This document shows positions 31,710-60,440 of a DNA stretch of 64,000 nucleotides, piece by piece. The stretch is from Planctomycetales bacterium 71-10. GTDB taxonomy: Bacteria > Planctomycetota > Planctomycetia > Isosphaerales > Isosphaeraceae. The first letter of the stretch is position 1. Each line of letters begins with the position of its first letter. The stretch spans positions 1,285-65,284 of the forward strand of contig MKTT01000089.1 in NCBI GenBank assembly GCA_001898385.1, given 5' to 3'. Both the position numbers and the translations under genes were made by a program. The notes under the pieces were generated by a model. It made no database searches and was not told where the DNA came from. It saw only the letters and a list, made by a program, of their open reading frames with translations.

Positions 31710-31888
31710 CTTCCCCCCTCGCGGGGGAAGACAGACCGCGAAGCGGTCAGATGAGGGGGACGCGAAGCGCGAGCGCCGTCGGGCTCCGAAGGCCCGCCCG
31801 ATCGGGCCGCCGCAAAATGCCACGGCCTTCTGACACGTCGTCCCCCTCATCCGGCCCTCCGGGCCACCTTCCCCCGCGAGGGGGGAAG
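31710..31888. repeat. 179-bp intergenic palindromic repeat, copy 1
   Basis: The ends (31710-31730 and 31868-31888) are perfect 21-bp inverted repeats beginning CTTCCCCC, each itself nearly palindromic. Inside each arm comes a short hairpin (ACCGC-GAA-GCGGT on the left; GCCC-TCC-GGGC on the right) and then GATGAGGGGGACG or its complement. The centre is unrelated between arms. It lies between the NHL-propeller gene and the M16 protease gene, both on the minus strand. Copy 2 at 51833-52011 has the same length and the same ends. It has no coding capacity and no transposase. Confidence 0.85.
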
Positions 31889-51832: not shown

Positions 51833-52011
51833 CTTCCCCCCTCGCGGGGGAAGACAGACCGCGAAGCGGTCAGATGAGGGGGACGGCGTGCGAGCCGGCC
51901 GTCGGGCCGCAAGGCCGGCCCGTTGGGCGGGCCTCCGAGGCCCGACGGGGCCCGTGCTTCGCGTCCCCCTCATCCGGCCCTCCGGGCCACCTTCCCCCGC
52001 GAGGGGGGAAG
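51833..52011. repeat. 179-bp intergenic palindromic repeat, copy 2
   Basis: Same architecture as the element at 31710-31888: identical 21-bp inverted ends (51833-51853 and 51991-52011), the same left inner hairpin ACCGC-GAA-GCGGT, right inner GGCCC-TCC-GGGCC, and the GATGAGGGGGACG box with its complement. Only the central part differs, and the total length is again 179 bp. It sits between the PSCyt gene and its DUF1501 partner, 14 nt after the stop and 43 nt before the next start. Confidence 0.85.
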
Positions 52012-58806: not shown

Positions 58807-58942
58807 CGGCGGGTCGGCTCCTCGGCGAGCGGGGCGGGGCGGGATGGGGATGGATGGCCGGGCGGGCGTCCTTCTCCTCTCGCGGAAGGAGGCGGCCGTC
58901 GGCGGAACCGTTCGGCACGAGGCTTGTACAATCTCCGAAGCC

Positions 58943-59281
58943 CCCTCTCCCGCCGGGAGCGGGCGGCCGCGCAGCGGCGGGTGAGGGTCGTCGGAGCGCG
59001 GAGGGCATGTCGGCCGCGTAAGATCCAGGCGGGCCGACGATCGACGTCCTTCTCTCCTTGAGGGAGAAGGTGGCCGAAGGCCGGATGAGGGGTCGACCGC
59101 CATGGCGCCCCCTCATCCGAATCGACTTCGAGCCCCGCGACCGTCGGTCGCGCCACCCATCATCCGCCCCTCCGGGGCACCTTCTCCCTCAAGGGGAGAA
59201 GGGTTCGTCCGCCCCGCCCGCTCCGAAATCCGACGACCCTCACCCGGCCCTTCGGGCCGCCCTCTCCCGGCGGGAGAGGGG
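58943..59281. repeat. Outer palindrome of a nested repeat cluster
   Basis: Left arm 58943-58995 (CCCCTCTCCCGCCGGGAG start, GGGTGAGGGTCGTCGG end) is matched by the near-complement at 59230-59281, about 52 nt each, with small differences in the inner hairpin. The design is the same as that of the 179-bp elements: end stem, hairpin, then a 'G(G/A)TGAGGG' box. The sequence differs, so it is a second repeat type. A further palindrome sits inside (59048-59202). The cluster lies between the divergently transcribed MFS gene (58806) and the tail of the Gfo/Idh/MocA gene (59331). Confidence 0.8.
59048..59202. repeat. Inner palindrome of the nested repeat cluster
   Basis: Left end 59048-59070 (CCTTCTCTCCTTGAGGGAGA...) and right end 59180-59202 are inverted repeats differing at one position, each itself palindromic. 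They are followed inward by TGGCCGAAGGCC-GGATGAGGGG on the left, with a GGATGAT/ATCATCC-type complement on the right. A third GGATGAGGGG/CCCCTCATCC hairpin lies near 59082-59119. No coding capacity. Confidence 0.8.
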
Positions 59282-59330
59282 ACTGCAAGCGGACCTCGCC
59301 AGGCGGCTTCTCCCGCGAGGGGCCGGGTCG

Positions 59331-60359
59331 TCACTTGCCGCGCGAGGCCGCCTCGGCGCGGGCGCGGGCCAGGACGCTCTCGATGGTCACGGGGCGGCCG
59401 TCCTGGCGCTTGCTCTCGTCGGCGGCCTCCATGAAGGCGAAGATTTCCAGCGTCTCCTCCGGCGAGACGGGGGCCTCGCCGCTCTTGAAGAACTTGACGA
59501 TCTCGGCGACGAGCGGCTGGTAGCCGACGTAGCCGCCGCTCTGGCCGATCCCCTTGGCGCCGAAGACCGTGGCGCCGAAGTCGTGCGGCGCGCCGTCGCG
59601 GATGCCGCGGAAGGTGCCGATGCGTCCCCCCTTCCACACGCCCACCGCCAGGTCGGACCCGGGGGTCGTGGTCCTCGACACCGACTCGCAGCCGGTCCCC
59701 AGGATGGTGAACAGGGTCTCGACGCCGTGGACGCCGTACCAGAAGAAGTCGGGGACGTGCTCCTCCAGCTCGCACGGGCTGTAGGCGTCGCAGCCGGCCA
59801 CGTCGCCGAGCTTCCCGGCGCGCATCGCGGCGATGCCCGGCGAGAACCTCAGGGCCGAGCTGGAGAAGACCGGCGTCCCGGTCTCCTTCGCCAGCTCGAA
59901 GATCTCGACCGCGTCGGCCAGGCTGCCGGCCACGGGCTTGTCGATGAACATCGGCTTGCGGGCCTTGAACACCGGGCGGGCCTGCTCCAGGTGCGGGCGG
60001 CCGTCGACGCTCTCCAGGAAGACGACGTCGACCTTCCCCAGCAGGGCCTCGATCGAGTCGACGACCTCGACGCCGTACTCCTCCTTCAGCGTCTTCGTGT
60101 ACTCGGGGACGCGGTCGCGGCTGGACGGGACGTCCGGGCTGCCGCCGGGGAACGCGGCCACCACGCGCACGCCGGCGACCTCGGGCGGCGCCTTGGGGTC
60201 GTTCAGCAGCTTCGTGAAGGCGACCGCGTGCGAGGTGTCCAGGCCGATGAGCCCCGCCTTCAGGACCTTCTCCGCCGGGGCGGGCTCCTCCGCGGCGGGC
60301 GCCGGCGCGGCGAGGAACGGCAGGGTCAGCGCGGCCGACAGGGCGATCCGAACGTTCAT
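59331..60359 (-). CDS. Exported Gfo/Idh/MocA-like protein with degenerate NAD loop
   Basis: A 342-aa protein with a Sec-type signal peptide (RIALSAALTLPFLAAPAPAA). It has the Gfo/Idh/MocA layout: VLKAGLIGLDTSHAVAFTKL, KVDVVFLESVDGRPHLEQAR, the DKP motif in PMFIDKPVAGSLADAVEIFE, and a C-terminal domain with HDFGATVFGAKGIGQSGGYV. The nucleotide loop reads GLIGLDTSH, without the usual GxGxxG. Together with Sec rather than Tat export, this suggests weak or no NAD(P) use, or a binding role. It is not closely similar to the 437-aa protein at 55091. Start ATG 60359 was set by the signal peptide. Confidence 0.85.
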   Translation of the reverse strand: MNVRIALSAALTLPFLAAPAPAAEEPAPAEKVLKAGLIGLDTSHAVAFTKLLNDPKAPPEVAGVRVVAAFPGGSPDVPSSRDRVPEYTKTLKEEYGVEVVDSIEALLGKVDVVFLESVDGRPHLEQARPVFKARKPMFIDKPVAGSLADAVEIFELAKETGTPVFSSSALRFSPGIAAMRAGKLGDVAGCDAYSPCELEEHVPDFFWYGVHGVETLFTILGTGCESVSRTTTPGSDLAVGVWKGGRIGTFRGIRDGAPHDFGATVFGAKGIGQSGGYVGYQPLVAEIVKFFKSGEAPVSPEETLEIFAFMEAADESKRQDGRPVTIESVLARARAEAASRGK

Positions 60360-60440
60360 GATGCTTCCTTCTGGACCGGTCGAGACGGGATCATCCACGG
60401 GCGTGATTATCCCCGGATCGGTCCTCGAAGGCCAGAACCG

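Follow-up and report, generated by a model that had tools for sequence, protein, structure and literature searches.

Nested palindromic repeats with triplex-motif anatomy in a planctomycete genome and their probable history of insertion into one another

The window analysed here, a 64,000-nucleotide stretch of the Planctomycetales bacterium 71-10 genome (contig MKTT01000089.1), carries a nested palindromic element, A(B), between two minus-strand genes which, from reading of their translations, code for an oxidoreductase (59331-60398) and an MFS transporter (start at about 58806). The preliminary description had noted an outer inverted repeat around an inner one of different sequence and like design, and this was confirmed by arm complementarity and by folding. 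The outer arms lie at 58939-59003 and 59221-59284, with 58939-58968 pairing with 59255-59284 (30 nt, 93% complementary) and 58970-59003 with 59221-59254 (34 nt, 82%), while the inner arms, 59048-59075 and 59175-59202, are 93% complementary over 28 nt. Folded as DNA, 58935-59290 reached -145.3 kcal/mol, compared to -89.9±4.8 for shuffled sequences (z = -11.5). A third GGATGAGGGG hairpin (59082-59095/59106-59119) had also been proposed as a separate element; it does not stand as such, because 59083-59092 is the inner motif of B and 59109-59118 a variant of the B spacer (Table 1). A search of Rfam found no family that matches the nested element.

Table 1. Coordinates of the features of the nested element and of its surroundings in the window.
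Feature	Position	Strand	Remarks
Composite A(B), outer A enclosing inner B	58942..59281	.	340 bp; ends taken from 30 inner-free A copies and nested copies elsewhere
A left terminal hairpin CCCTCTCCCGCCGGGAGCGGG	58943..58963	+	
A spacer including small second hairpin CGGCCGCGCAGCGGC	58964..58978	+	stems in the spacer are conserved among copies
A left purine tract GGGTGAGGG, putative third strand	58979..58987	+	
Inner element B	59048..59202	.	bounds are the terminal hairpins, as in B-only copies of G002, G003 and G004
B left terminal hairpin	59048..59070	+	
B left purine tract GGATGAGGGG	59083..59092	+	
B-spacer variant, extra GGATGAGGGG (also given as CCCCTCATCC)	59109..59118	-	same variant in L002, L016 and L044
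B right purine tract GGATGATGGG, one mismatch	59156..59165	-	
B right terminal hairpin	59180..59202	+	
A right purine tract GGGTGAGGG	59237..59245	-	
A right terminal hairpin CCCTCTCCCGGCGGGAGAGGG	59260..59280	+	
Decayed arm of older TM pair around A(B)	58870..58901	.	alignment with G001 element; pairing with 59297-59322
Other, suggestive decayed arm of older TM pair	59297..59322	.	weaker alignment; pairing with opposite arm

A and B are different repeat families with the same arm layout, which consists of a 21-23 nt hairpin, then a spacer with a small stem, and then a purine tract, which is a mirror image of the purine strand of the hairpin except for one A-to-T change (GGGAGAGGG/GGGTGAGGG in A and GGGAGAAGG/GGATGAGGG in B). 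With a pyrimidine-purine hairpin and a tract that mirrors its purine strand with at most one mismatch, the arms have, at the sequence level, the anatomy of the intrastrand triplex motif (TM, TMECO) described from E. coli (Holder et al. 2015, PMC4666352), the triplex itself being putative. The likeness includes the sequence, as the hairpin CCCTCTCCC..GGGAGAGGG followed by GGGTGAGGG is the same as in the E. coli motif, and the location, which is intergenic in both cases and in E. coli sometimes involves inverted pairs. Here, in contrast, pairs are the rule, units are nested in one another and show signs of movement, and the second loop is mostly 12-15 nt long and usually has its own stem, exceeding the ITxF loop limit of 1-6 nt that was used in the TM search of Holder et al. 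(2015). That study found no mobile-element context for the motif and left its spread open. Hairpin and tract are strictly coupled: among 76 distinct arms from the fetched loci, A hairpins were followed by A tracts (45/45) and B hairpins by B tracts (31/31), with no mixed arms (0/76). Mirror identity between hairpin and tract is 8/9, against 7/9 when the tracts of A and B arms are swapped, and the mean spacer stem in the 76 arms is 4.3 bp, against 3.1 bp with halves swapped. Since the arms compared fall into two families, hairpin and tract may have changed together in a single event. A third family, C, is present in the window as two relatives of the TM pairs (31710-31888 and 51833-52011) with identical 21-nt arms (CTTCCCCCCTCGCGGGGGAAG, 100% complementary) and, judged by eye, matches the TM mirror criterion poorly.

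In the 7.7-Mb genome of the same organism, a 376-bp query gave at least 124 BLAST matches, about ten of which span nearly the full nested length, the others covering only B or parts; with 40 of 502 candidates scored and copies fetched piecewise, all these counts, the ten included, are lower bounds. A query with an inner-free A (L017:3062-3221, L numbers denoting loci) recovered more than 30 inner-free A copies. Of 30 copies read, 29 were 159-162 bp long and one 175 bp, and the boundary fell between T and CCCC on the left in most and between GGGG and A on the right in nearly all. Furthermore, the 12-mer GGGTGAGGGTCG occurs 156 times in this genome, compared to 3 for its reversed control, and in the 100 of these places that were listed at least 33 pairs of A tracts face each other and none face away. 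Among the 33 pairs listed, spacing was 86-88 bp in 17 (empty A), 135-137 bp in three (a lone B hairpin inside A), 267 bp in two (one B inside A, one of the two being the window copy), 318-581 bp in nine (further insertions), and 102 and 195 bp in one each. The copies with a lone B hairpin within A (L040, L047, L111, L112) would be deletion products of B. In the same genome, L016 and L026 contain B with A-like inner spacers and without A arms. L011 has its inner element in the opposite orientation to the outer. When filled and empty copies of A are compared, AGCTATCTCAACAGGTCC lies to the right of B in L111 and L049 and is also found in empty copies (e.g. L091). Composites were also observed at contig ends (L002 at the end of C104, L019 at the start of C70, and L050 in C46), so that the draft assembly is probably broken at these repeats and their copies are undercounted.

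Single-type copies were found in related species as well. B occurs without A in G002, G003 and G004, with the same start (CCTTCTCCCC) and end (GGGGAGAAGG) in unrelated surroundings (L060, L058 and L057). Some G003 copies (L104-L106) have about 20 bp in common outside B, and B in G003 may therefore sit within a host repeat too. In the sister species G005, C lies at the same internal place in four copies of A (L056, L095, L096, L097). As a separate observation, L108 (G001:C2:4727550-4727950) holds B at the exact midpoint of a palindrome, GGGCGATCCA/TGGATCGCCC.

The window locus itself can be followed across relatives, since the genes for the oxidoreductase and the transporter are neighbours in 5/5 of them (proteins 73-88% identical). 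Of the five, G003 and G005 lack any element between the two genes, and G001, G002 and G004 carry a single simple TM pair. Remains of such a pair, overlooked in the preliminary description, flank A(B) in the window. On the left, 67 bp of the 58870-58901 side aligned with the orthologous G001 element and its flank (score 38, against a maximum of 30 in 500 shuffles), whereas the 59297-59322 side scored 23-25 against the G001 element, a value reached by 4-6 of 500 shuffles. As the shuffles in both comparisons preserved base composition only, this weaker side is suggestive of a decayed arm. The two arms (58876-58901/59297-59322) are 73% complementary to each other. Given the simple TM pair in relatives and its remains around A(B), the window locus consists of three layers, B in A in a decayed older TM pair.

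The longest nested forms are accounted for by another element, Y, which is absent from the window copy. Its end, TGCTSCGTCGAAAACAT, was found with at most two mismatches at 79 places in the own genome and at 0-10 in relatives, Y being abundant in its own species only (copies in the own genome include L044, L114 and L117-L133). Both ends were read in 23 copies. A 9-bp direct repeat with no more than one mismatch is present in 15 of these (4.9 on average in shuffled sequences, maximum 10), and 19 are placed centrally in a TM hairpin; in L127, Y with the exact repeat AGTAACAGA is found in other DNA. Y carries B, C or a lone hairpin inside. Y resembles ISRm22, which inserts at the axis of REP palindromes (Tobes and Pareja 2006, PMC1525189), as both enter palindrome centres, those of TM hairpins in the case of Y and of REPs in that of ISRm22. 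Unlike ISRm22, Y is a small, non-autonomous element that generates duplications of 9 bp and has TM elements inside it.

A and B occur independently of one another and at sites that are empty elsewhere, and younger units have repeatedly inserted between the arms of their predecessors. Very probably, A (about 160 bp) and B (130-165 bp) are two families of non-coding, MITE-like mobile units. In an ancestor, a B unit would have inserted into the spacer at the centre of an A unit, and the resulting A(B) would then have been copied to many places as one unit. At the window locus, it would have inserted into an older TM pair, between its two arms, which have since decayed. The insertion of one element into another, which the preliminary description had put forward, is supported by inner-free A, by B without A and by C in A in G005, and its suggestion that the repeats can move is supported by the single-type copies together with the orthologous sites without the element. 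This reading needs refinement: as the composite itself has spread, the window copy does not necessarily mark a separate entry of B. Furthermore, composite copies share spacer sequence, and the own genome may therefore hold only one or few B-into-A events. The target-site duplication looked for at 59047/59203 was not seen there, nor at A or B ends generally (2.87 vs 2.72±0.16 in shuffled sequences at A ends; 1.38 vs 1.47 at B/C ends), and palindromic targets outside A showed no excess over shuffled flanks. In the mechanism that we prefer, an enzyme supplied in trans would work on the hairpin ends and leave the target unduplicated; among the mechanisms of movement, we would give such a transposase roughly an even chance.

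Other histories have to be weighed against this one. That the nested form is the normal structure of one complex element could be argued from the full nested form having the same layout at about ten loci. The preliminary description had held that this would follow if all copies were nested alike; instead, the search for single-type copies that it proposed yielded at least 30 inner-free A copies in the own genome and B without A in sister species. A single complex element is refuted by these copies, and the replacement of B by C in G005 and the lack of an Rfam match leave it with hardly any probability. A more serious possibility, although an improbable one, is that A units at first carried a lone 23-nt B-type hairpin, through which homologous recombination or gene conversion brought in whole B elements from elsewhere. 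The A copies with a single B hairpin (L040, L047, L111, L112) and the hybrid-looking copies L008 and L123 speak for it. Deletion between the two like ends of B would also leave a lone hairpin, however, and recombination explains neither the presence of A, B and C at many unrelated places nor the arrival of the hairpin in A.

The enzyme involved raises an alternative of similarly low probability, namely that these are REPIN-like elements moved by a RAYT (Y1) transposase. Inverted hairpin pairs, intergenic location, many copies and the lack of target duplication all fit, and the own genome contains Y1 transposases, one of them RAYT-like in length. Against it, no TM motif was found within about 1.5 kb of any of 13 Y1 loci in the genus (0/13; L034 being truncated at a contig end), and no Y1 match was obtained in G002, which does have TM elements. 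Like REP/REPIN and the CGTC/GTAG-tagged dimers (Di Nocera et al. 2013, PMC3733652), the units described here are short palindromic repeats arranged as inverted pairs, but they differ in sequence, in their three-part arm and in having no RAYT association here. Some of those tagged dimers were reported within longer palindromes, and CGTC repeats have no known transposase (Di Nocera et al. 2013, PMC3733652). Many A copies read CGT before the terminal CCCC and ACG after the terminal GGGG, and a CGTC-like end is therefore possible for A on its sequence; GTAG was not noticed at the hairpins.

A and B share with bacterial MITEs a short, non-coding unit with inverted terminal repeats, present in many copies between genes and at many unrelated places, and differ from them in making no target-site duplication and in that no parental transposase was found among the Y1 transposases looked at. 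TM repeats, TM pairs and dimers within palindromes were already known, the layering and the evidence of TM-pair movement being new. A broader proposal, that TM pairs are a distinct class of mobile DNA which makes no target duplication, prefers the centres of existing palindromes and stacks like Russian dolls, is rather unlikely in our estimation; if true, it would account for the presence of TM motifs, which have had no known mobility, in hundreds of bacterial genomes. With several TM families, nested copies and sites both with and without an element, the genus is a place to establish the ends, the rules of target choice and the enzyme responsible, and its nested palindromes are a record of insertion order.

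Lastly, other repeats were observed around these elements. A flanking repeat with TGTTCGGCACRAG ends was considered and set aside as weak against its reversed-pattern control (31 vs 13 places), and CCAAGC(T)AT around B in L049 and L111 is a candidate repeat only. Additionally, TTTTTCCTGACCGTCCCGGATTTTGGGG and its complement form another repeat around or within A or Y copies (L009, L037, L134), and in two copies B has a further palindrome, TAGGCTGGGTC...GACCCAGCCTA, at its middle (L021, about 1692-1758, and L024, about 1410-1476).
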